Below are positions 1,227 to 57,800 of a DNA stretch of 64,000 nt, piece by piece. Each line of letters begins with the position of its first letter. The stretch's first letter is position 1. Under the pieces are notes generated by a model. The model was given only the letters and a program-made list of their open reading frames with translations, did not search any database and was not told where the DNA came from. Source of the stretch: Echinarachnius parma (taxonomy: Eukaryota > Echinodermata > Echinoidea > Clypeasteroida > Echinarachniidae); the NCBI GenBank assembly GCA_037951105.1, contig JBAMJV010004277.1:172092-236091 (forward strand), given 5' to 3'. A program made the position numbers and the translations under genes.

Positions 1227-4200
1227 ATGAGCAAGCTCAGTTTTCGGGCTCGGGCTCCGGATCCCTCGAAGCCCATGCCCATCTACACCACAGATGAGCT
1301 CCCAGATTTGCCAGATTTTTCAACGACAAATCGGGCAGTTCCTCAAATGCCCACAGGAATGGAAAAAGAAGAGGAATCGGTATGTATAATGTCACATAAA
1401 GGAGTCCTTCTAATTTTGCATACGTAATGAGCTTATTTTACCCGGATCTTGGCGGCCATGTTTTTTTTGATCCGCCGAAGGTGGCGGGCTCACAAATTTT
1501 TTAAGGGGTGCGCAGTTCAATTTAAATTTTAATTATTTAATATTGCAAGACTTTTGCTCTATATACCCTCTTATCCATGTGATATTTACACAGCCTGCAA
1601 GTTGTCTCTCAAAATATATGATAAATTGCTTTCAAAGTAAATTGATTTCAAGTTGTATTTTTCCCAAAATCTGAATCCACCCCTCCCATAAAATGGACTT
1701 ATCTTGAATGTGTCAATTATGAATTTTGTCAACACTAAAATTAATTGATTTTTTCTTTCAAATGGGCAATAATTTGTTCTTGATTATATGCTGATTTAAA
1801 TTTCATGATTAATAATCATAAACAAACCTTAATCCAATTTATTGTTCATTTTGTTCTAAAATTATTTTGTGTTTGAATAATTAATTTTAAAAATGATGAA
1901 TAATTCATGAGGTGACTGCACCATACAGTTTGTGTATAGTGTGTATAAACTGGGTGTGTAATGCAAATATGCATTGCAGTACTTATGCAGTGAATCATTG
2001 AATGAATGGCATGGCTATGTCATGGCACTTTGCACAATGTAAACAGTGTTGCCTCTTTATCTTATAATTTACATTTGGCTTCTATCATTTAGTTAGTTGC
2101 GATTTTGATCAGGAAATATATTGTTATAACTAAAAATGTAAAATCATTCTTTTTTTAAAAAGTAATTCTATTTATTTCATTTAATTTGATTTTTTTAAAT
2201 TGTGATAATCTGTTCTCAAAATTAAAAAAGCAAAATGTATTTCAATTATTTCCAGAATTTGTTCAGTATCTTATTAACATGTTTGTTTTTCTCCCACCTC
2301 AAACCCCAAAACGGCTGTTTTTTTAAAACCTTCCAAGGCCGTGGGGGTGGGGGGGGGGGGGGAGTCTCGAAAGCCCCCCCCCCCCCAAAAAAAAAAAAAA
2401 AAAGATAAATAAATAAATAAATTAAAAAAAAAAAAAAATTCAAACTAGCTTCTACAACTTGAACTTGACATCAAACACCATTTTGGGTGACCTGGTGTGC
2501 GATGACAGAAAGTTAAATCGGAGACAAAATTAAAATATCTTGTAGAGAAATTTCTAGATGAGTGCTCTGGGCAATTCCACGATAACACCGGGACACTTCA
2601 GAACACATTTTCACTTTCCAAATGTAAATAACAAACTAAGTGTAAAGAATGAGATCAATCTTTTATTGTATATCTTTGACTGTTATCACAAGCAACTATG
2701 AAAAAAAAAAATTAATACAAAATTTTCATTTATTAATGAGTTACGCATCATTAATTACTACTGTAACACCGGGACGCAAAAAGGACATGCTTTTTTTAAC
2801 ACTTTACATACTGGCAAAACTCTGAAGTTAATGAACCATTTGAAACTTGGCTATATTTATTTGGTTTAGTAGAGACTCAATAATAATAATTAGGTGTTAT
2901 TTGGAGAAAAAAATCTATCATGAAGATAATTATAAACTAGCATATAAAAAATTGTACCGTAACACCGTGACCGTAACACCGTGACCGTAACACCGGGACC
3001 TCTGAAAGGGCATGTACAAAGTCTATGGAAAATTAGGTTGTCTTACTATACTGGCAAAACTCTGTGAAGTTGGTGAATATTCTGAAAAGTGTCTATATTG
3101 ATTTGGTTTAGTAGAGACTCAATAATAATAATTGGGTGTTATTTGTAAAAAAAAACTATTATCAAGATAATTATGAACTAGAGTATACAAAATTGTACCG
3201 TAACACCGGGACTGTAATGTACAAAGTCTATTGACAATCAGGTTGTCTTACTTTACTGGCAAAACTCTGTGAAGTTAGTGAACATTTTGAAAAGTGGCTA
3301 TGTTGATTTGGTGTAGTAGAGACTCAATAATAATAATTGGGTGTTATTTGTAAAAAAAAACTATTATCAAGATAATTATGAACTAGAGTATACAAAATTG
3401 CACTGTAACACCGGGACTGTAATGTACAAAGTCTATGGAAAATTGGGTTGTCTTACTAAAAACTCAAAACATTTTAACTTTAGGTAGTAGATCAAGCAAC
3501 AATTTAGTATGTATACATCAAGCTACCACCCCAACATGACAGAAACTAGCTGGTCACTTTAGTATGCAGTGATTCTCTATGCTCCCTGTACTATTGCAAT
3601 GTAAGTCCCGGTGTTACAGTCCCGGTGTTACAGTGACCGTAACACCGGGACCACTATTCAACCATTTTTAATTAATTAATGAAATGTCCAATCATCATTT
3701 TGATACTTGTTTATGGTAGATATGTGTGGTCAAGATTTGGGCAATTTAAGTTTTTTTGTTTGTGTTCGTAATTTTCTTACAATGCTAAAAATATCAGTTT
3801 TTACCGTAACACCGGGACAATATTCTTTATCATAAATGAATTGTTCATTGAGCGTATCAAAATGAAAAAAATGAACTTCAATGATTTTTTAAATTACATT
3901 AAACCCTAAACCTCTGAGAAAATATAATAAGTTTTTACCTCCTGTCTTACTTGCTCTTGCTACATTGATTTATTTTCAACACGCTTTCCAGACATTGGGA
4001 GGAAAATTAATTACCGTATTTGTCGGTGTATTAACCGCTCCGGTGTATTAACCGCACCCCTAAAAAAAAAAAAATGGTGGTTAATACGGTCGTGTATTAA
4101 CCGCACCCCCCTTTTTTTTTTTTTTTTTTGAAAAAAAGTGCGGGTAATACACCGACAAATACGGTATTCATATTTTATGCGCATATTTTAATATGTTCCT

Positions 4201-7200
4201 GATGTATATTTCTATTTTAAAGGTCAGATTTTAAAAATTCAGTTCTTAAGCTTTATTTTGATACCAAAATTGAAACTATCTGACCATTTTGAAAATTTGG
4301 TGGTCATGTCCACTTTATCGTGGAATTGCCCCTCTACCTTTTCAAATTTTGCCACAACAGATAATTACTAATTACCAAATTTGATTCAACAAAATATTAA
4401 AGGGGACCACCAGGCAAACAACAACACATTATTATATGTTTTGGTACCGTTTTGTGATATCAAATAGATACCCAACATTTTGCAAAGGGTTGTGTAATTC
4501 ATAAACAAAGCAATTAATTTCCACCACTTACGGAACCACTACTATTTCCTGGTTCGTACGGGCCAAACATTTGCGAGTGCGTCAATGCGATTCACGCGTA
4601 CGTTTGTAGACAATAGAATCCCGGGCGATTCGTTCGCTCTGCACACAATAGTCTTCGCAATTCAGACCGCATGAACACATGCTTTAGAATGGTGAGGCGT
4701 TTTCCAATTATATATATTTTTTCTGGAAACATATTTTTGTAAACTTGTTGATGGAATGGAATACTAAAGATGTTACCTTTCTTTAGTAAGAACAGGGAAT
4801 AATTTTCCTCCTGCAATTTGATTAGCAATTTCAGCCAATGGATTTATTTTCAAATGAAATTCTGTACACTTCTATGGAAGAAAACTGCTACACAAAAGAT
4901 ATTTTGTATAGCAGTCATGCAAAAATGCATAGCAAATTGCGATGCGATACCAGGAAAATTATTCCCTGAAGAATATTTTGTTTGGGTGGTGGTACCCTTT
5001 AAGTGTTCATAATTGATTAGTAGGGTTGGCTGTTTCTTAGAAAATGTTGAGGCAAAAATGTCTGGATTTTCTGTCAGACACTTGGGGGACACTCATTGGT
5101 TGATTTGACAGATTGACCCACTTTTGAATAAGTCATAAGGCGGCGAAAGGCGCCCCCCCCCCCCCCCCCCAAAAAAAAAAAAAAAAAAAAAAGTAATATT
5201 ATACATTTAAAAAAAATAAGATAAATAAATGATGAATACAAATAGTTTTCTCATCCTGACTTTTTGTAAAAAAAGGATGAGGGATTTTAAAAATTTGTAT
5301 GGCCGCTGCAAGATGGCTGCCCGGGGGGGGGGGGGGGGGGGGGGGGGGGAGTACCACCTATACACCTGCACTATGGCCCCCCCCCTTAAGATCTCGGCCG
5401 CAGAGCGGCCGATCGCCATGAAAATTTGCACGCATGATAAGTGAAGTGTATAGAATACAATGTAATTTTTAATTTAAAAAAAAATTTAATTAATTTGCAT
5501 ATTTATGGTAATTTATGCAAATAAGGTCATAAAATTCATAATTTTACCCATAAATCATATATTCATAATTAAACATTGGTTTTCACCACATATATTCTTT
5601 AGAGCATTTGGAATAATACGGCAACAAAATTTGGAAGAGTCCGGTTCTTATGTTTTCTATTGTTTTTATAATTTCTTACTGTATACACTATTTCTTTGTT
5701 TTTTTACTTAAATGTATTTTATTGTTTTTGTTGTTTATTTTATTTCTAACTATAATTCAACTATTTTGAACCCCAAAACAAACATATAAAATGTAAACAA
5801 GACCAACTAACCAATGATATACCTCTTTTTACGAAAACTGATATTTCCATACATGTTTTGTACACAAATCACGAAATTGAGCGATTTTCGGGCTGACATG
5901 CATAGACAAAAGGTCACGTGACTTTGTAACGGTAGGTCCGATTTTCAAAGTTTTTGTTTTTTAAATACGCACAAGACCCACAAAAAAAAAGTCACCAAGC
6001 AGCGGCGCGTCATCTTACCGCGTTTTGGAGCAAATCACGAAATTGAGCGATTTTCGGGCTGACATGCATAGACAAAAGGTCACGTGACTTTGTAACGGTA
6101 GGTCCGATTTTCAAAGTTTTTGTTTTTTAAATACGCACAAGACCCACACAAAAAAAGTCACCAAGCAGCGGCGCGTCATCTTACCGCGTTTTGGAGCAAT
6201 ACAAAAAATCGCAGACGGGGGGGGGGGGGGGGGCCATTATGGCCCCCCCGCCGGCCTTATTAGGGTTAAAATATGACATTCATCATGATTGTGGGGGCTC
6301 AGGCAGATTTTGACCCCCCTAAAATTAAATAAGAGCACTGGTAAATTTGTGCTTGAGCAATTAACGCAAAACTAATTTTTCATGCAGACATGCTTTTAAA
6401 GTAGCCCACGACAAAATAAATCTTAATTTTTCCTACATTTACATTACAGGAGCATCATCTGCAGAGGGCCATCTCGGCTCAACAGGTGTATGGGTCTGCC
6501 AACCATCTAGTCATCCCAACTCCTGAAGTCATGTCAAATGTGGAGCTCTACGAAAACCTGTATGAGCAGAACTGCAAGCAGAACAGGCAGTACATTCATG
6601 TTCAGCGTAAGTGTTCATTAATATTATCCTAAGAACTGCTACTACTACATACATGTACAAAGTGGAAGTGCTACTTCTATACTGCAACATTTAACTAGTT
6701 AATTTATTTGTTTGGCTAAGAGAGAAGTGAATGTGAAAATTCACTGTATTATTAGATTTAAGAAATTGGATTAATGATTAGACTTCCACTTCAATGAATC
6801 TGCTTGATTCGGATTCACACTTATCTAAGCTAGAAATTAATTTTCTTGTTTTGTGGCACAGTTAAGCAAGTGCAAACATGATTTGGTTGCCCATTTGGGT
6901 CAGTCGAATTCAGCATCAAAGAATTTGGTTGCCCAAAGCTGGAGCACTTTGAAAAACAGCTTGTAGCTGACAAGGGCAATCCATCCCATGAGTGGAGAAT
7001 AGATAAATAAAACAAAAATAAATTAAAAATAACAACTTTTAGTGGCCCTGGACCATGTGGGCGGGCCAGTGTTAATTTTGACAATTGTTAAACACTGAGA
7101 TTTTATAATATTTTCTTTTTAATCCAACAGCCCTGAGTATGGAGCAGGACATTCCAGACTACGACATGGATTCAGGAGATGAGATGTGGCTGAGAGAGGA

Positions 7201-33800: not shown

Positions 33801-36800
33801 GCATTGCCTTTGTTATTATCAACGTTGTCCATGTCATTGCCAAAGTCATTGTCAATGTCGTTGTCAATGTTGTTGTAATCATCATTACCATTACCTGATA
33901 AGCCCAATGTATGCGACCTCTGTCCTTGAGATGTCATTGACCAGAGACAGACCAACCCCAGACATGGAGACTATCAGCTCCAGGTCAGGTTGTTCCAACT
34001 CCGCAGCCTGTCGAAAAGGAAATATGAAAAAGAAATCAACATTAAATTCATGTTTTGTACAAATATTTGTCATTTATGCTTATCTTTGGCTTATCATGTT
34101 TATTTGTATAGATCTTTTTTATTGATTAATTTAATTGAAGATTTGATTCTGATTAATACAAATTGAAAGATGATATAAAAATTTAAGTAATAAAAGAGCT
34201 GAAAAATCACAGCAAATGGAAATGACAAGAAGTAATACATGTATATATTTTGTTATGATCAAGTTTGTTCTAATCAACTAAGGAATTACATATTATTCAG
34301 ATATTTAGAATAAACAATCCTTCAAATATCGTAGAAAATTAAATATCCATTTTAATGCCTCAAGGATAAATATCACATTTGTTGTCTAATTAATTATGTG
34401 GTAGCTAATTTAATGATTGGAAAATGTAACAGTGGTTTCTAAAGACAGGTTTCACTGTGATAAATTGATCATACCTGTGTAGCCTTGGTGGCTAAGGCCA
34501 GGTCCTCTGTGAATAGTATGATGCGACTGGTCCCCTCCAGGAAGGATACCCAGTACAGGATCTTACCGCTACCTTGCTTGATCTCACCGATACCATCCTA
34601 AAAACATCACAAGTTGTATTGAAATGGTAAGAAAAATTGGTTCAATTTTCCTCTAGGATAGATTCTGCTAGGATTGAAAACTTAGGCCCTTCATATCATC
34701 TTTCAAAAATAATAATATAAGAACAAAATTACAATATAATAATACATAAGGGATTTATCAAATCAACTATAGTAGTTTTACTAATTTCATTGATGATAAG
34801 TAGTAATACACAACAAACCTTTTTATTAACTTAATTTTTTACATCCTACCACCACAACTGCTCATTGCAGTAATTTTAATTATTTTGAATATACATATAG
34901 AAAACAAAAAATATCACAGATCTGCATAAATATGCCCAAGAATAAAGTAAATGATCAATTATCAATAAGTTCATAAATACAAGTATAATGGATGCAATAT
35001 ACAAATGATGCGCAGGTATGAGTGGGTCGGTAGGAATTGTTTGCACAAGGTAACTATGGAACTGTTAAACCCACGAGGCGAAGCCGAGTGGGTTTAGACT
35101 AGTTTCCATAGTTACCGCGTGCAAACAATTCCACCGACCCACGAAATAAACTTGCGCATCATCTGTTTTATAGAATGGGCATTGTTACGCCCCCCAAAAA
35201 GTCAAAAAATTAAAAATTAGAAAAATTACCGGATGCATGAAATAATTTTACCGGACGCATGAAATTTTTTACCGGACGCATGAAATTTTTTACCGGACGC
35301 ATGATTTTTTTACCGGACGCATGAAATTTTTTACCGGACGCATGAAATTTTTACCGGACGCATGAAATTTTTACCGGACGCATGATTTTTTTACCGGACG
35401 CATGACTTTTCATGCATCCAGTACAATTAATTGTCTGCACAAATTTTGCTCTCAACCAATCAGATTGCAGGGATTTATCAACCCATTCTATAATACTTGT
35501 TATCCGTATGGATAGTTTGTTAAATAATTATTTTGTTCTTTCGTCCATTCGTACATTTATTCATTCATGCATAGCATGACTTTCCCTCTTCTAGTCCAAA
35601 GAATAATATCATGCACAATGTGACCCAAATTATATACTAACTTTGATGCCCTAACACCAATCCAGACATTCATTGGACTGTAATATTTACACATTAATAG
35701 ACTATTGTACACCTAGTATTCTGCAGAAAAAAATAGATGGATCTTCGACATTGCGCGATGTATATATCGAGCCCAAATTAACATGCACTGAATTAATTTG
35801 TAAACTCAATGTTGATATTATTAAACTGTCTACCAGATCTGATACATGTATATCACAATTATGCGCCTTTTTTGCATATGTATGAGCCATGACCTTGACC
35901 TTTGACCTAATGACCTGAAAATCTTATTAGTTTATTATCTCCACAAGATACAAACAGGTACCAAGTTTGATGGTTATTTGTCAACTGGTTCTTGAGATAT
36001 TATTACAAGCTATTTTGGCATATAAGTCCTGTGACCTTGACTTAGGGTTAGGTATGGGGTTAGCCCATACAGTGATTGACTTTGAATGATGCTCCTCCTT
36101 TGCTTAGAGGGCAAACGTTGGACATACTTGCAATGTGTAGAGAACATAATCAAAAGTAAATTGTAGGTGGGGAAACTTCTCCTTTAAATTAGGTAATTGT
36201 GGCATTTACACTTCCTGCCACTTCAAACCAGACATTTGTGACAAAGAGTTTAGAACTATACTTTTTGAATAAAATTTTACAATATTAATATTCAGAAAAG
36301 CATAAAGTAAAACAAAACTAGATGGATCTTCGACTGCGCGCAGTCGAAAAATTATGCCTCCGCTATCACGCAATTTCAATATCAAGCCCAAATTAACGTG
36401 CACTGAATTAATTTGAGTCCTGTGACCTTGACCATATGACCCCAAACTTTGATGGCTACATTGGCTCCCTAAGAAACATTCAGGTACCAAGTTTGATTGA
36501 AATCTGACATTCAGTGATTGAAATGTTGCCATTACAAGCCATTTTTGCATATATTGAGTCCTGTGACCTTGACCTTTGACCTCATGACCCCCAAAATATA
36601 ATCTGATCATTGCTACCCCGATGTGTACACTCAAACCAAGTTTGAAATTGATCCGTCAACCGGTTCTTGAGATATCACGAGAACGAGGCATTTTTGCACA
36701 TATATTGAGTCCTGTGACCTTGACCTTTGACCTCATGAACCCAAAATCTAACCAGATCATTGCCACCCCAATATGTACACTCATACCAAGTTTTAAATTG

Positions 36801-39800
36801 ATCTGTTAACCAGTTCTTGAGATATCGCGAGAACAAGGCATTTTTGCACATATGTTGAGTCTTGTGACCTTGACCTTTGATCTCATGAACACCAAAATCT
36901 AATCAGATCATTGTCACCCCAATATGTACACTCAAGCCAAGTTTGAAGTTGATCCGTCAACCGGTTCTTGAGATATCGCGAGAACGAGAGATTTTTGCAT
37001 ATATATTGAGTCCTGTGACCTTGACCTTTGACCTCATGACCCCTAAAATCTATTCAGATCATTGTCACCCCAATATGTACCCTCATACCAAGTTTGAAAT
37101 TGATCAGTCAACCGGTTCTTGAGATATCGTGAGAACGAAAACGGGACGTACGTACGGACGTACGGACGTACGTACGGACGGACGGACAACCCGAAAACAT
37201 AATGCCTCCGGCCACTTCGTTGGCGGAGGCATAAAAATAATAACTACAATTAAAAATACACCAACATGTTGATACCTGCCACATCAAATTACGTCTTTGT
37301 GACCAACCAATTAGAACTGAAAATGATTTGTATTCAGAAAACAATAATTAAATCAAATCAAAATGTAAATGCACCATAATATTGACCCCCAGCTGCCACA
37401 TCAAATCAGACGTTTGTAACTAAGCACAGCAAAACCAGACATAGTCTGTAAAAAAGAACGCATCTTTTTCATTTTTATTTCAAACTTTAAACTTTAAACT
37501 GTAATTTCATTTATGGTTACTTCAATTTTTGCTAAATATTATAAATATTTTTTTTGTAAATCATCTTTAAAATGTTTTTATTTTATTTTTTATATAGAGC
37601 TGCCAATTATTGATGTGCCCATTCACATTTAATGGCACTGGTGTTGAGACCTGTGGAAAGTTCTTTTGTCTGGAGGATGAATCAATAGATCATCCCCCTG
37701 AACAAACGATATCACTTAAAGATCTACACCAGTGATTATCCACAATGTATTTGAATGAGGGTTGGAGGGATCAAAACTCTTTCAAAATCAAAATTTCCTT
37801 TATATCCATCGGTGCCGATTCGCCCACAGTACCGAGTATACCAGGAAACATCATTTGTAACTTACTTTTGCAATGGTGAATTTTTTCTGCAAAAATGCAA
37901 CCAACAATTCAAGTACAACTTGTTAAAAAAATAGAATTGATAATAAAACACAGAACAATATGGAAGGATAATTTTAAAAAAGACATATACATGTACTAGG
38001 TGTTAAACAAACAAAACTTGAGTTACTTTTCATTGTAGATAATAAACAAAAAAAAGTACTGCATGGATTCTAGTCACATTGAAGCAGAAATACAGTTTTG
38101 TAGGGTGCAGTTAAATTGTATATTTCTCCTGCATTGTTGGTACTATATCAAAATATATTTTAAAAAGTAGATTGCAAAATTTGGTTCAATAACCCTGCCT
38201 TACAAATTTCAGAAGCTGTCTACTAGTCAATGAGTGTGTGTCAGTGTGTTTCACACAGAAGCTGTCTACTAGTCAATGAGTGTGTGTCAGTGTTTCACAC
38301 AGAAGCTGTCTACTAGTCAATGAGTGTGTGTCAGTGTGTTTCACACAGAAGCTGTCTACTAGTCAATGAGTGTGTGTCAGTGTGTTTCACACAGTGGCTA
38401 TAAAGTTGGTCCATGCCACAATAAGTTCCATTTGGAAATATTTTCTAAAAAGAGAATAATCGTTACCTCCTTCAAATCATTCTTGTTGTCTTTTCCGTCG
38501 ACGTTCCAGATGAGCTGACGTTTGCCCGTGGGGTTCTGCCATGTGTATAACACCTTCTCCCCTGGCCCTAGGAACATCTTGTCTTCAACGCCGCTATGGT
38601 GGTCATAAGGATGCAAACAAGAAATACAATAAGAAATAAAAGTCAAAATGGCAATTACCAGCATCGCATGAAATTGTCATCAAATTAATTTTAAAAAATT
38701 GATAGAATCATCTAACTTCTATTCTTATATGGTATCTGTATAATGATATTATACCAAGCAATAAAATGCATACTAATTAAAGACAAATTTTCACAAATGT
38801 ATACCGTAGATGTATTTTCTTTCATCTTGTAAAGAGTCGAAGATAAATGCATTAGTTTTGTATTCACAAACATTAAAATTAAACAAAATCTATTTTAAAG
38901 AGAATATATTTGACATCAGAAAACTGAAAGAATGTTTCAGTTGATAGCCACATCGTTGGTATTATCTGTAAGACTGTTTTATAAATGACTTTTGATCAAA
39001 TGTACCACAACTGACCTCTGACTGAATGTGATAGCCACATCGTTGGTATTATCTGTAAGACTGTTTTATAAATGACTTTTGATCAAATGTACCACAACTG
39101 ACCTCTGACTGAATGTGATAGGCACTTCTTTGGTGTCGTTGACCAGCTGGGTGGTGAAGTGACCGACAGCAAATGACCGGAAGGCAACCACAGTTGACGT
39201 TTCAGTAACCTGACTCTCCACAATGATTCCACCAACCTGGAACACAAACACAAAATAATCAATGTCAAAGTACTTTCCCTTAACTTTCCAAAAGAGATAT
39301 GTGAAACTTCAGTCATATACCAAATGACTGCTAGATTCTGTATGATGTGAGAGTTTCATAAAAAGAACACTGTTTACGTAAGTGAATATTGAACATTTCA
39401 CAAACCTGGAACACACAAGCACCCAAGGTTTAACCTTACAGAGAACCAGTTTGTTTTAGGTGTCATTTAATGATTAATTTATTGTTTTAAACTTTGCATT
39501 GTTGTGTTTCATGCTGTATGACACTTTTCTGTGATTATGTTGTCTGATTTTATTTAATTTAAAAGTATCTTTGATTGTTCTTATGTCACTTATTGTACTG
39601 GATATTGTATTCCCTTGTAAAATGTATTTATTAATGTTACAGGGCTTTCTGGTAAAGCAGGTCCACTTATATAGGTGTAACTGAATAGAATTTCCCTAGC
39701 AAAATATATCTTGAATAATAAACCAACACCTCAATAAACTTCATTTATAGTGTTGAATTTAATTTTCATTTTTATTGGTATATTTGCAAATAAACAAATT

Positions 39801-48800: not shown

Positions 48801-51800
48801 ACAAGATTTGAGCCCCAAAACTTTTCCTGGACAGCCCCCATGGAGCAGCAGACAGAGCTAGATGGAGATCCCTCCTGTCGCCTCAAGCGCCTCATGCTAC
48901 AGACGAGGATTGAGCGAGTCTGGCTTTGGTACGTCCAAACAACATGACCAAAATATGTTACCAAAGTGTTATTACAAGTGTATGAAAAGCTCTAAAAATT
49001 TAAGTCGATGGAAAGAAAAGGGTATATGTTTCATTACAATGTTTGCGGACGTGAGAGTAAAAGGACTTTCCTTCAACACAGCCCCCATACAGCAGCAGAT
49101 AGAGCTAGGTGGAGATCCATCCTGTCACCTCAAGCGCCTGATGCTCCAGACAAAGATTATGTGAGTGAGTGAAAACAAATCCTTGACCACATAAAATAAC
49201 AAGTTAGTTAATAATAGGTTTGATATATATAGCGCATAATATGAAACAATATAATCTCTAAGCGCTTTACACTATTGTTACCCTAGTTGTGGGATACAAC
49301 GCAATCTTGCACACATTTGATGCACCATCTTCACTTCCTGGGTAGCATTCCTTCCAAGTGGCTCCTGAAGATCTTTCACATACAGGCTTTCACCTACTAT
49401 CGGGTCCCCATTCATACAACTGGGTAGAGAGCAGCAGTAGTGGATTAATTGTCTTGCTGATATGCCAGGACCAGTTCTAGATAGAACCAGGACCAGTTCT
49501 AAAGTTGTTGGTTCTTACCTCAAAGTCTTTGCTGGACGTCTTGCAGGAGATGAAGCCAGAACTACCCACAGTGTCCAGAGAGAACTTGTCAGACCAACTG
49601 GACTCTCCAACCTTGACCTGGATCTGTGTGTTGTATGATTGTAAAAGATAAACTAACATTAAATTTACATTCCATAACTGGGTTTTGATGTTCACTGATC
49701 ATTCTTCGAAAAAATATGTATATGCTAATATTGGATTATGAAATATGATTATGATTGATTTGGTTTGGTATTACTAGTAGTTGAATAGAAAAATAATATT
49801 TTACAAGTTACACTTGCCATTATAAATTGCATCAGTTAGATTATGGTTATGTGACAGTGATTACATGTTTTCTATGTATGATTTATCAGTGTATTTCTCT
49901 TGCTAATAACATAGTAGAGATCAAAATACATAATGCACAAATAAAATGAAATTAAAAAGCCTTGTTCTGTTACCTTGTTCTTGCCGGGGCTGAATGTCTT
50001 GGTTGGATAAGAGAAGAAGATGGCTTGGATGGGTAGATAGATTAATGAATGAATGAATAAATGATAAAAGATGTGTTACCTTGTTCTTGCCGGGGCTGAA
50101 GGTCTTGGATGGGTAGGAGAAGAAGATGGGCTGATCCTGATCAGCTGGATGCTCTATCTGCTCCTCTCCACCACCCTGACAAAACAACAAACAATTTTAA
50201 TATTAACACTTTGTGTGCTGTGCAGTAGATCCCCCGTCGCCAGATTATTTTAGGCGCGCCGTACGCATCGTATATTGTATGCGCGCGCGCACCGCACGCA
50301 TCGTTGTCTGTGAAGTCGAACGAAGCGCGCCGCTGTTTGTGACTAAAGTCGAACGAAGCGCACAAAGTGTTAAAGTGATCTGTGACTAAAGTCGAACGAA
50401 GCGATCTATAACTTTTGTAAGATTTTTCCAAAAATTATATTTGAGATTTCGATCATATACAAATATCATTATAAGACTCTTTTGAATAATGTGTGATTGT
50501 TTATATAAAAAGAACACTGTTTACCTAATATAGGTTTTCCCGCTCAATTTCGCGATTGTGTCAATCGAATTGATAATAGGAGCAAACGAATTCGCGCGAT
50601 TTGCGATCGCCGTACCAAAGCAGCATTCGAATTCGTAAATAGTCGTTCAAAATCACGTAGGAGCAAGTGAATTTGCACAAAGTGCATACCTTTTCATCAA
50701 TGGTCATTCGAATTCGCGAAAGGCCGTTGACAGTTGGCTGCACATTCGCGAATTCGAATGCCCATAAATGAACTTCTGTGTCTATTCACGAAAGCGTGTG
50801 CGTATGCATGAATTCGCATGCACTTATTCGGAATTTGGAAGACCGATACCAACGATTACGCGGCAACGCGCGAATTCGAATGACCCTAAATGAATTTGAT
50901 TGAAAAAAGTGCAAAATTGAGCGGGAAAACCTATAAAAACAAAAAATTGATGTCAGATTTCATCATACATGGCCAGGTCTACATACCTTGGCTGAGATCA
51001 AATTAAATCAAATCAAATCATACCCCAGCAAAATTAATGCTTGAAAAGGGTACTAATTCCATTAATCAGATAATAACCAATATTGCATATGAAGTCTGAG
51101 AAGTTGTTTGTGTACCTTGTAAGCGATAGGCAGACCCGTCTTGTTGATGAGCATGTATGGTGCAAACATGGCCATGTCAACGAAGCCCTGGCTGAAGTCA
51201 TACCACACCCCGGCCTCGGTCCACTTGCCATTCGGCCCCCGGAAGCCTAGCTGGGAGTATTCTTGCAGAGTGGTGCGTAGTGTCATCTCACCCCGCCACT
51301 CCAGGCCATTGTAGCCGTCGATCTATGGAAAAGGAACAAGGAAATGGTGTTCATACCTCCAAGGACTGTCATGGTTGTGGACAATAAATGGAAATGTCAT
51401 CATCATTATCATCACAGTCATCATCTACTTCTTTAACATCATTGTATCATTATAATCATCTTAACCCTAAAAGACTGGGGGCTGATTAGGTCCCCTTCCT
51501 CCATTTTCATGATTTCCCATCACCATCCCATCATAATCATAATCATAATCATAATCATCACCATCACCATCTTCATCATCATTTTTACCATCACCAGTAC
51601 CATCATCATCATCATCTTCATTGTCATCACCATCCTCGTCCTCATTATCATCATCATCATCTTATATTGTATTGTTTTAACATTGTAACTATTGATTACG
51701 TTTTTACTATAAGGTTGAAATCTTCATCATCATCATAATCATAATTATCATCATAATTTATTGTTTTAACATTGAACATCATCATCATCCCCTGCTTACC

Positions 51801-54800
51801 CTGACAAACATCATGGTCTTTGCCAGCTCTACATTGTACATCTTGCTCTGTTCCATGGGTTCAATCTTGATCTCCTCAGCAGAACCCTGACAAACAAACA
51901 AACAAACATCAAACAAAGAAATATCAAGCAAAGAAATATCAAAGAAATAAACAAATATATATCAATTTGCTTGAAATTGATAATGAAATTGTACATTATG
52001 AGAATGAAATATTCTGAAATCAGTGACTCCATCATGAAGTCAGTCCATGTACATGTAGTATTCAATAGTAGAAAAGAGCAAGTGTGACAAACATAACCAG
52101 TTTATGAACCAGTAATAATCATTTAGTACATAGTGTTGGGCACCAGTAAATTATGATTTTTAGCATGTTAGATTGATTGATTAAATTGATTACTTGCTAT
52201 TACGATTTATATTTAATGATTAATGATTAAGTACATGTTAATACGTGTGGTTTGCGATTGCACCATGTAAGAGGGAAGGATTGGTGAGTCCTGAAAAGGA
52301 CTGATTTGTTATTCTTCCTAGGATAGTCCTAAAAAGGACTGTGGTAGTCCTAGAAAGGACTGTTGGTAGTCCTAGAAAGGACAGTTGGTATAGTCCTGAA
52401 AAGGACTGTTGGTATTCTTTCTAGGAGAGTCCTAAAAAGGACTATTGGTAGTCCTAGAAAGTACATGTTTGGTCACATTGTTAAAGGAAAGCCAATTCCC
52501 CATATTCATTCTCATTCGTATTTATATAAATTGAACCAATTATCAATATTAGCCTATACATTCTAATTACTGTTACTAACCTGCAGTGTATAGTAGAGAG
52601 GCAGTGGGAGTAGATTCCTCAGTGTGACCACAGGCTGGAGGTGGATGTCATACTTGGGGGCATGGAGTGACGTTCCATTTACATCCCGCAATACATCCTC
52701 TTGTATTTGAGCCTGAAAATAAAAAGGATACACACTTGAGTGAAGAGCATCAAAATCAGTGCAAGGTTGAAGTTACATTGAGACTTAGTACCTTCGGTAA
52801 AATAAAGAAATAATCATCATCATTATCATCATCATCATCACTGTCAATAGTATTTCATAAATGAAAATGAGCAAAGAAAAATGGGCATCACTAGGAGTCA
52901 AACCAAGACCTCCGAATTGCTTGACCGGTGCTCAACCATAGCCACAAAGCCCCTTGAATGAGGATACTTCCCAGACAACCCTTTTCATTGCTTGCACCCA
53001 ATTCAATGATCTTTGTGGCTTGAGCACCGTTCTGAAGAATGTGAAGATACATTACGTATTTCTAAACTCACGTTGAAAAAGAACGGGGTGTAGCCTTCAA
53101 CTTTAGCAGGGCAGCGGAATGTGGCCTGCTTCTTGCCAGTGCATTTCTCCTTCCACATACTCTCATACTGCAACGGTTGATCGCACATATGGTGGCTGTC
53201 AAACAAATGAAAGAAAACATCACAAGAATAAGATGGTGCACAAGATAATAAATAATAATAATGGTGGCTACTTATATAGCGCACATTCCGTCTGCCGATG
53301 CTCGCGGCGCATCACTATTATTACCCCGGTCATCAGATACATACTGCACTCAATCCAGCACACAGAGTGCACATTGTCCACTCCCTGGGGAGTATTCCAG
53401 CTAGGCAACCTCATAGGTGCACACAGTGCTAAGTAACTCTTTTCCATCCTTCCGGGTACCCATTTATACACCTGGGTCGAGAGCAGCAAATGTGGATAAT
53501 TTTCTTGCTGAAGGAAAATCGCGATGGGCATACCTTGGGTTCGAACTCGGGACCTCACGATTGGAAGCCACACCACGTCCATTGAGCAATAGAGCAATAT
53601 GACTGTGTAGCTACATGTATATCTAACTAACCACTGGAAGTTTGCAGGGTTCTGAAGTGGCGAAAAGAGCCACATCTGGGCACTTTTACACTTTTACACA
53701 GCAGGAATCAGAGAAGTCATTTCTATACCACCTCATTATTAGACTAGTAGAAAGAAAGAATGAAGCTTACCCGATTTCATCCATAGGTTTGACCAGTAGT
53801 TCCTGTGTGTGTGCAATTTGGACCGGCACCATGAATCTCTCGTTGGGCTTTAGCTCTCCTAGCTTGTCAACAAAGGTGGCTTCCCTCCGATAGATGTCCA
53901 CGGGTACATCAAAGTGGTTGAAGATCTGAAAGTGACCACAACAAAATGAACAGAGAATACATTTTAAATGTTATGAAAAGACCCTAATCAAGTCACAATA
54001 TTTGACATTTATGATTTGCGTACAACTACACTGTAAGGCCCAATCACAAAGATAATTAGAATCATTGGCATAACTCACTGATGTCAATATGCTAGAAAAA
54101 CACATATCACAAAAGAAAGTATGTGGGCACAGGTACCTTCCTCATGCATTCAACCAACAGGGTTTATCCAAGCATATATAGCTGGTCCAGCGTTATGGTC
54201 GACCTCTCACCCCCAGGTCTACATTCGTTTGGTGTATGTTTCATTTGGTATATCAAATTGTCTGTTTCCTCAACTCAAATCTTGACACAACCCTCAAACT
54301 AACCCTAATCATAATCCCCACTTGTGCACCCATTCAACTCGCTGGGGAGTAAATGTATATGTTTACCTGTAGTGGTGACCTGACGGTGACCTTCCTTGTG
54401 TCAAGGGTCGCCTCAATCTCCAGGGTGATGGAGAAGATGGTCTCTGACGTCTTCTTGACAGGTTTAAGGTTGTACAACACATGGCCGGCCTGCACTATGG
54501 GTAGGCACGACAGGTCCTCATATCCATCCAACTATAAATATCAGGAAGAAAAGTATAAATAGGGTGATAGGAGAGATACAGAGGAATTGGTCTTAGGTCT
54601 TCTTGACAGGCTTAAGGGTGTATAACACATGGCTGGCCTGGACTATGGGGAGGCATGATAGGTCCTCATAGCCACCCAACTGGAAAATGAACAATTGAAT
54701 TAATAATAATCTATTTTATTATGATTATTTGATAATGATTTAATCATTGTTAATAATAATATTAAAAAGAATACAAACATGACATGTGATCAAGTCGATA

Positions 54801-57800
54801 GCGGAGAGACAGTGAAGGTTGTTTGTGATATCTTCTTTACAGGTCGTAGGTTGTACATCAGATACTGTGAGCCCTCCAAATGAAAAATAAATGATAATGT
54901 AATTGATAATGATTTAATCATTGTTAAAATACGTTCATAGATTTGATATAGGAATGATTTTGTTAGTACTGTTCTTTAAGTTCTGTAGGTTGCACAGCAC
55001 ATGTGGGCCTGCACTATGGATAGGCACAACCGGTCATCATAACCCTCCAATTGAAAAATGTGAGTAGTTACAAGTACTGAAAAAGGAGTCATATTTTTAG
55101 TACATTTGGCAGTATTTTAACATGCAGAGTTACATGTACCAGAGGATAGCCCACTTCTGTAGCTTTCACTACTCAGGCATGTGACCTAGGGCTACAGAAT
55201 TACAGATAGGCACTGCCTTACGTGCAAAGTTTACACGAGGAGGCCTTCAACTTTAACTTTGATATGATAATGTGACTAACTATATAAAATACCTGAATAG
55301 AGAGCTCCATCTCTGATGGTGAGATTGGGGATTTGTTGACCAATACCTGAATAGAGAGCTCCATCTCTGATGGTGAGATTGGGGATTTGTTGACCAATAC
55401 CTGAATAGAGAGCTCCATCTCTGATGGTGAGATTGGGGATTTGTTGACCAATACCTGAATAGAGAGCTCCATCTCTGATGGTGAGATTGGGGATTTGTTG
55501 ACCAATACCTGAATAGAGAGCTCCATCTCTGATGGTGAGATTGGGGATTTGTTGACCAATACCTGAATAGAGAGCTCCATCTCTGATGGTGAGATTGGGG
55601 ATTTGTTGACCAATACCTGAATAGAGAGCTCCATCTCTGATGGTGAGATTGGGGATTTGTTGACCAATACCTGAATGGAGAGCTCCATCTCTGATGGTGA
55701 GATTGGGGATTTGTTGACCAAGACCTGAATAGAGAGCTCCATCTCTGATGGTGAGATTGGGGATTTGTTGACCAATACCTGAATGGAGAGCTCCATCTCT
55801 GATGGTGAGATTGGGGATTTGTTGACCAAGACCTGAATAGAGAGCTCCATCTCTGATGGTGAGATTGGGGATTTGTTGACCAATACCTGAATAGAGAGCT
55901 CCATCTCTGATGGTGAGATTGGGGATTTGTTGACCAATACCTGAATGGAGAGCTCCATCTCTGATGGTGAGATTGGGGATTTGTTGACCAATACCTGAAT
56001 AGAGAGCTCCATCTCTGATGGTCAGATTGGGGATTTGTTGACCAATACCTGAATAGAGAGCTCCATCTCTGATGGTGAGATTGGGGATTTGTTGACCAAT
56101 ACCTGAATAGAGAGCTCCATCTCTGATGGTGAGATTGGGGATTTGTTGACCAATACCTGAATAGAGAGCTCCATCTCTGAGGGTGAGATTGGGGATTTGT
56201 TGACCAATACCTGAATAGAGAGCTCCATCTCTGATGGTGAGATTGGGGATTTGTTGACCAATACCTGAATGGAGAGCTCCATCTCTGATGGTGAGATTGG
56301 GGATTTGTTGACCAATACCTGAATGGAGAGCTCCATCTCTGATGGTGAGATTGGGGATTTGTTGACCAATACCTGAATGGAGAGCTCCATCTCTGATGGT
56401 GAGATTGGGGATTTGTTGACCAATACCTGAATGGAGAGCTCCATCTCTGATGGTGAGATCGGGGATTTGTTGACCAAGACCATCTTCTTGGTGTTCTTGA
56501 CGGTCTGGGAGATGTCCAGATCAATGCGGCCCTCGTGTGCTATGGCCACTCTCTCTCCAGACTCGGGTCTCTGTAGAAAGGTTAATTCAATGAATAAATG
56601 AAAATAATTTATTCATCAAAGCAAATCAAAATATAACATAACAAAATATAACAATATATTTAGTAAAGAGAGAAAGCATATAACACTAATTGCTAGTCAA
56701 AGCTCTTTAAGACATGAAGATGTGATAATAATTTATTCTAATTGTAAGTATTTACAAATCTTCAGTCATACCAGCTCTAATGAACATATATAAATACACA
56801 AAAAGTTGCAACTGATCAGGACTCCATGTTTTATGTTACAGGCATCCGATACAGTTAAGATCTGTCTTAGCAGCCACCTGTCTATATCAGCAAACCTGCC
56901 TATAGTGGCCACCAAGAGTGTTCCTCTGCAGGGTAAAACAATGTCATGGAACCTGTCTATAGAGGTCACCTGTTTTGTTTTGGTTTCCCTTAGGCGGTCA
57001 CTATACACATGGTTGACTGTACTATGTTACAGTGGCCATCTGTTTTTGTTAGGTGGTGTTTGTAGACAGATTTGATTGTATTCACCTGATAGAATGTGCC
57101 TGGCCTGAGGGACACTGCTACACCCGTCTGGTTGATCACAGTGCATGCTGGGATACGATCTGTATCCTGGATGGACGTCCCGGGTTCCGCCATGGCCGCG
57201 CCAAATAACTGTCAGAGGGAGACAAATATTAAATTGGCATCATTTCATCTTCAGTATCATTGAATTATTTTCGACATTATTATCATTTTAATTATCATCA
57301 CTATCATCATCATAATCATTATTTTCATCACATCATCATTATTACCATTATAATGATCCTCCTCCTCAAAACCTACCTTCTCCTCATGATGTTCATCAAC
57401 AACAATGATATTTTCATTATTACCATCACCATCATCATGATTAACTATAATCCTCAGCAACTCCTGACATACCTTTCAAAGCTTGGTAAATAGAGCCAGC
57501 GATGTCTTGATAATTTTTATCTCATCATTATCACCATTATCATCACCATCAAAACCAATGTCAGTGTCATCATCATCACCCTCCTCACTTTTATCCTCAT
57601 CTCATTCTCCCTCAACCACCATAATATTTCATGGCTGTCCTCTGACATACCTTTCCCAGCTTGGTGAAGAGTGCCAGGGATGTCTTGGTGACGGTCATCT
57701 CCAGTGTCTCTGCTGCGGAGACGGTGACAGTCATGGCAGGAGGAGCCAGGTTCACGCTAGCATTCTCCGCATCCTCATCCTCCGAGGAGGCGACCGTTGA

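Follow-up and report, generated by a model that had tools for sequence, protein, structure and literature searches.

A VPS13 gene of Echinarachnius parma carries, at the end of one of its exons (exon m in our gene model), 22 head-to-tail copies of a 54-bp segment, each of them ending in CAG and followed by a GT donor dinucleotide. The array is real and unusual. We lean, with only a modest preference, towards the reading that exon m is closed within the first one to three units and that the remainder of the array is effectively intron, the whole having grown from a partial duplication that took in the exon end together with its donor.

The array and the gene that harbors it

The DNA analysed here, referred to as the window, is a stretch of 64,000 nucleotides (contig JBAMJV010004277.1). 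We assembled a gene model of 21 exons (63558-49519), with GT/AG borders chosen by eye, which contains 1024 codons and no stop in the part examined when exon m is closed at unit 1; a few of its borders (the donor of exon b, the acceptor of exon u) score poorly and may be off. Human VPS13C aligns with residues 83-1022 of the 1024 (E=5.1e-100), human VPS13A aligns as well (E=1.6e-75), and the protein matches the Pfam families PF25033 VPS13_M (3.4e-36) and PF25036 VPS13_VAB (9.5e-38). Judged by homology over the middle region and the VAB domain, this is a VPS13 gene of the VPS13A/C type, in agreement with the original prediction for this DNA. A first Pfam scan, of 205 residues, had returned DUF5543, a match that we rejected as lying below the cut-off (13.5 vs 25 bits), the longer protein having given the VPS13 families. 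Across the whole window, neither Rfam (gathering thresholds) nor a tRNA search gave any match.

Both human alignments cross the array region with one unit, and so the ancestral state was likely a single copy. The unit corresponds to residues 652-669 of the gene model and lies at the start of the Pfam VPS13_VAB match (residues 663-1020). It had been placed between VAB modules 1 and 2; by our reading of the VPS13C alignment, it would instead fall inside the first module. The features of the locus are as follows.

56427..56570, minus strand: exon m, ended here with unit 1 (144 nt, phase 0; acceptor CTACAG/AGA, the slash marking the border; open frame; VPS13C alignment with one unit)
56427..56480, minus strand: unit 1, of the GTC..CCG..C type, then CAG/GTATTG
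56049..56426, minus strand: units 2-8, frame open, CAG/GTATTG after each, the use of which keeps the frame
55995..56048, minus strand: unit 9, with an in-frame TGA at 56024-56022
55293..55994, minus strand: units 10-22; donors here, or that of unit 9, give an mRNA with the unit-9 stop
55284..55295, minus strand: last donor, CAG/GTATTTTAT, probably the original intron start (local matrix and predicted accessibility)
54367..54531, minus strand: exon n, the next after m (phase 0, gene model)

The array has the top score (2297, with 98% matches) among the 42 tandem-repeat rows of the whole window. Its units follow one another without a gap from 56480 to 55293 on the minus strand, and exon m starts at 56570, all as originally predicted; with 22 units of 54 bp it falls within the size range of minisatellites, or VNTRs (units of about 10-100 bp). 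The 18-codon peptide described for every unit is found in 21 of the 22, the exception being unit 9, whose in-frame TGA had been overlooked. Some uniformity claimed for the borders was likewise lost on inspection: unit 1 starts with GTCTT and 19 of the 21 later units start with GTATTGG, as described, but units 13 and 15 start with GTCTTGG; the six bases after each unit are GTATTG (19 units) or GTCTTG (units 12 and 14), as described, but GTATTT after unit 22, and so the donors are not all alike. All 21 internal boundaries read CAG/GT, which makes each of them a donor and an acceptor by dinucleotide, and they provide the AGGT-bounded duplicated segment by which intron gain through AGGT tandem duplication is recognised.

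Five positions vary within the unit. In order, the unit types are A b b b c s c c stop b c c a c a c c c c c c c, in which a GTC start and C at base 48 mark a and A (the latter showing one further silent change), b combines a GTA start with C, c combines a GTA start with T, s is c with a silent change and stop is c with the stop codon; units 16-22 are identical to one another. This mixed order suggests repeated slippage or exchange, not a single amplification. The G+C content of the array (0.455) lies above that of the introns other than m-n (0.356) and below that of the exons (0.529).

A stop codon in unit 9 limits the productive donors

We joined exon m to the rest of the gene model at each of its 22 candidate ends in turn. 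With the donors after units 1-8 the frame stays open, over 1024 to 1150 codons, while those after units 9-22 (14/22) all lead to a premature stop after residue 803 of the modelled part. A length switch calls for at least two in-frame donors that leave the protein open, which eight of the 22 do. The isoforms in 18-residue steps that had been proposed thus keep their frame at donors 1-8 and lose it to the stop beyond, and the implied productivity of every unit donor fails at the other 14. With a TGA in unit 9, the sequence as given cannot encode a protein ladder of 22 steps (unless that base is wrong), and at most eight candidate protein lengths are left. Most of the array is therefore probably intron, with the first eight copies at most being able to yield protein-length variants.

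The openness of the frame tells little about whether the array is coding, since the other two frames contain no stops at all. Changes are synonymous at four of the five variable sites, a pattern with a probability of 0.012 under uniform substitution. This might point to coding constraint, but the states are unlikely to be independent; with two of the variable sites common to groups of units, we set this constraint aside as evidence for coding.

Which donor closes exon m

Donor strength was scored with a local matrix built from 20 local donors. The last donor of the array, CAG/GTATTT, scores 5.67, 19 donors score 3.38 and two score 0.79; among 840 background GTs, 17% reach 3.38 and 6.5% reach 5.67, and only those of exons b and j fall below 3.38 among the other 20 modelled donors. 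Complementarity to U1, counted against the consensus, does not separate the GTATTG donors from the last one (7/11 each; 5-9 among the 21 modelled donors). In folding of naked RNA, the predicted unpaired value of the 9-nt donor window is 0.231 for the last donor vs 0.001-0.012 for the other 21, a low accessibility that does not rule a donor out, since the modelled donors of other exons are also low (0.000-0.098). The free choice among many equivalent donors that had been envisaged is not supported by these scores, one donor being stronger and two weaker than the rest, and by the 14 donors that lead to a stop. Donors 1-8 are identical from -3 to +6.

Closing exon m at units 1-3 gives it 144, 198 or 252 nt, at unit 8 it reaches 522 nt and at unit 22 it reaches 1278 nt; the 21 modelled exons, with exon m taken as 144 nt, measure 80-281 nt. 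If donor 1 is used, the m-n intron spans 1895 nt, the longest of the 20 and twice the next (940). An early donor is favored by the stop past unit 8, set against a modelled part that is open over 1024 codons, by an exon size inside the modelled range, by the single unit of the two human proteins, by the GTATT common to the unit junction and the intron start after unit 22, and by the tie in U1 complementarity. It is opposed by the better matrix score and accessibility of the last donor, the long m-n intron, the synonymous sites and an array G+C above that of the introns. Moreover, where donors are duplicated the intron-proximal one is often favored, which also counts against an early donor. We nonetheless prefer the early donor, at the modest strength given above, because we weighed the unit-9 stop and the exon size above the score and accessibility of the last donor. 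The accessible part of PMC8724738 does not decide which donor prevails when many are equal.

Proposed origin of the array

The junction between units reads CAG/GTATTGG, and the intron after unit 22 starts with the same five bases, GTATT, which differ in one base from the GTCTT that starts unit 1, after AAGATG. These borders fit the earlier suggestion that the duplicated segment took in the exon end and the first bases of the intron, thereby carrying a donor in each copy. In the route that we infer, a short tandem duplication would have linked the GTATT that opens the intron after exon m with the similar GTCTT lying 54 bases upstream, so that the last 18 codons were copied along with the donor. 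A join at this five-base near-match would give exactly the observed junction; a simple C-to-A change would do equally. The duplicate may then have expanded to 22 units through ordinary minisatellite slippage or unequal exchange, while the exon would still be closed at a donor within units 1-3, mostly that of unit 1, with the remaining units serving as the start of an enlarged intron. Since the period is divisible by three, splicing now and then at donors 2-8 would leave the frame intact, and this may explain how the array was able to grow; splicing at donors 9-22 would yield an mRNA with a premature stop.

Alternative readings

Closure of exon m in the first units has to be weighed against readings in which more of the array is used. 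Several of donors 1-8 might be used together, so that VPS13 isoforms would carry between one and eight copies of the unit in the first VAB module, while mRNA from donors 9-22 would be lost to nonsense-mediated decay and the array would also set the output of the gene. That the eight donors share their bases and their frame speaks for this, as does an AlphaFold model, computed without an alignment for exon m with eight units, which shows a regular strand-and-turn ladder (mean pLDDT 65.4, pTM 0.67) with one strand, mostly of 10-11 residues, per ~18 residues, each strand spanning a unit border and SPISPSE forming the turn. Extra units could, on this prediction, form a plausible sheet, but the model comes from a single sequence and is of low confidence, and the unit lies in a conserved domain that has one copy in human VPS13A and VPS13C; we regard such isoforms as possible but unlikely. 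Improbable in our estimate is the fuller version of this scheme, a graded splice rheostat in which donors 1-8 would produce a VPS13 ladder with one to eight beta-strand repeats in the adaptor-binding domain, donors 9-22 would act as a poison sink and copy number, differing between individuals, would tune the amount of VPS13.

The last donor, best of the 22 in local score and predicted accessibility, might itself be used, in which case the 1278-nt exon would give a truncated or decayed product and the allele would be a damaged one; the protein would then end after residue 803 of the modelled part though the rest of the model is open, and we hold this to be quite improbable. Splicing within the array, with the unit boundaries serving as both donor and acceptor, is suggested by the dinucleotides at all 21 of the internal boundaries, but the acceptors at unit ends are weak (-0.93 to -1.6, the 21 modelled acceptors ranging from -6.84 to 13.11) and splicing at a better mid-unit AG (5.46 to 6.77) would take out 34+54n bases and shift the frame, making this the hardest reading of all to credit. 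An error of assembly or base calling, in the copy number or in the TGA, seems to us very improbable; the run of identical units 16-22 cannot be checked from sequence alone, but the units differ in an ordered pattern not expected of simple stutter.

Other duplications in the gene and the window

Closure of exon m at an early donor may have a parallel elsewhere in the gene, where diverged copies of exon edges were found in the introns next to exons k and t, and further ones in the m-n intron.

57464..57509, minus strand: 3' end and donor of exon k, repeated in diverged form within intron k-l (87% identity; the exon-k-aligned frame contains a TGA)
49968..50023, minus strand: 3' end and donor of exon t, repeated in diverged form within intron t-u (93% identity; period 106)
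54591..54681, minus strand: diverged copy of the start and acceptor of exon n, in the m-n intron (BLAST)
55050-54987: a second diverged exon n start, also within the m-n intron (BLAST)

Exons k and t have one copy each, at offsets of 178 and 106, neither of which is a multiple of three; given these offsets and the TGA in the k copy, it is the upstream donor that keeps the frame at both exons. By analogy, these would be events of the same kind as the array, in single copy, and a parallel for the early donor in exon m.

A third diverged exon n start, seen by eye only, lies in the m-n intron at about 54879-54800. The copy nearest to exon n has an acceptor (54679) that outscores the true one at 54531, with 10.5 vs 8.15, but it also has an early TAA. 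Upstream of exon g, 60453-60200 holds diverged copies of its acceptor and first bases (pairs 122 and 255 bp apart), and the acceptor and first part of exon i recur in diverged form 221 bp upstream, at 59429-59306 (81% identical). Beyond the modelled exons, 49166-49078 and 48919-48831 form an 89-bp local duplication (85% identical). A dispersed repeat links 53511-53453 with 49460-49401 (85% identical); just upstream of the former copy stands GTTCGAACC, which we take to recall a tRNA-derived SINE, and ARAGORN found no tRNA gene in a scan of the window that included this SINE-like repeat. Tandem arrays outside the modelled part of the gene lie at 5865-6199, 3012-3458, 36540-37138 and 38210-38394, with periods of 166, 205, 151 and 46 bp, respectively, and 89-99% matches.

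Tandem duplication is thus not rare in the window. Among 11 duplicate pairs (10 from self-BLAST with E up to 1e-5 and at most 1000 bp apart, intra-array pairs dropped, plus units 1-2 added by hand), eight touched an exon and six an exon edge, against circular-shift means of 5.3 and 3.5 (p = 0.085 and 0.096), a count in which exons g and n each entered twice and the array pair was scored as inside, unit 1 lying inside modelled exon m. In light of this control, we claim the copies and not an enrichment at exon edges.

Relation to known systems

The array belongs to a known class, that of splice sites moved by tandem duplication, and is set apart within it by the 22-fold repetition of an exon 3' end with its donor. 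No report of a VPS13 exon-end array was found in the open-licence literature, among the titles and opening lines of abstracts of the matches listed, which is weak evidence of absence. The closest printed case found among these matches, as far as the accessible text of PMC3629103 goes, is that of the fission yeast genes SPOG_01682 and SOCG_00815, in which the gained introns are built from tandem 24-nt repeats bearing proto-splice sites. There too a coding segment that includes a proto-splice site recurs in tandem, with some of the repeats being intronic; unlike those gained introns, with their 24-nt units and AGGC sites, the array described here repeats an existing exon end and donor 22 times beside an existing intron.

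Tandem genomic duplication is also described, in the available portions of PMC4974935 and PMC3443670, as a source of intron gain or boundary change, with potato RdRp and ATP2A1 (as told in PMC4974935) as examples. Splice sites are supplied by tandem duplication in these cases as well, and the potato duplication crosses an exon edge, but on the acceptor side, whereas here the donor side is copied and no new intron is shown. Human tandem donors, in the excerpt of PMC2423196 at hand, resemble the array in offering more than one donor per exon and in giving some products with premature stops; they are mostly pairs a few bases apart, in contrast to 22 donors at a 54-base spacing. The intronic VNTR of ABCA7, which affects splicing, is likewise a tandem repeat in a gene; in the accessible part of PMC5954066 it is not described as made of exon ends and donors, as the present array is.

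To conclude, the locus resembles an exon border, donor included, in the course of tandem expansion within a large gene that is otherwise open, and two other exons of this VPS13 gene seem to be accompanied by single-copy instances of such an event. As such, it would be a natural system in which to examine how the spliceosome selects one of many near-identical donors and how introns come to absorb partial exon duplications.
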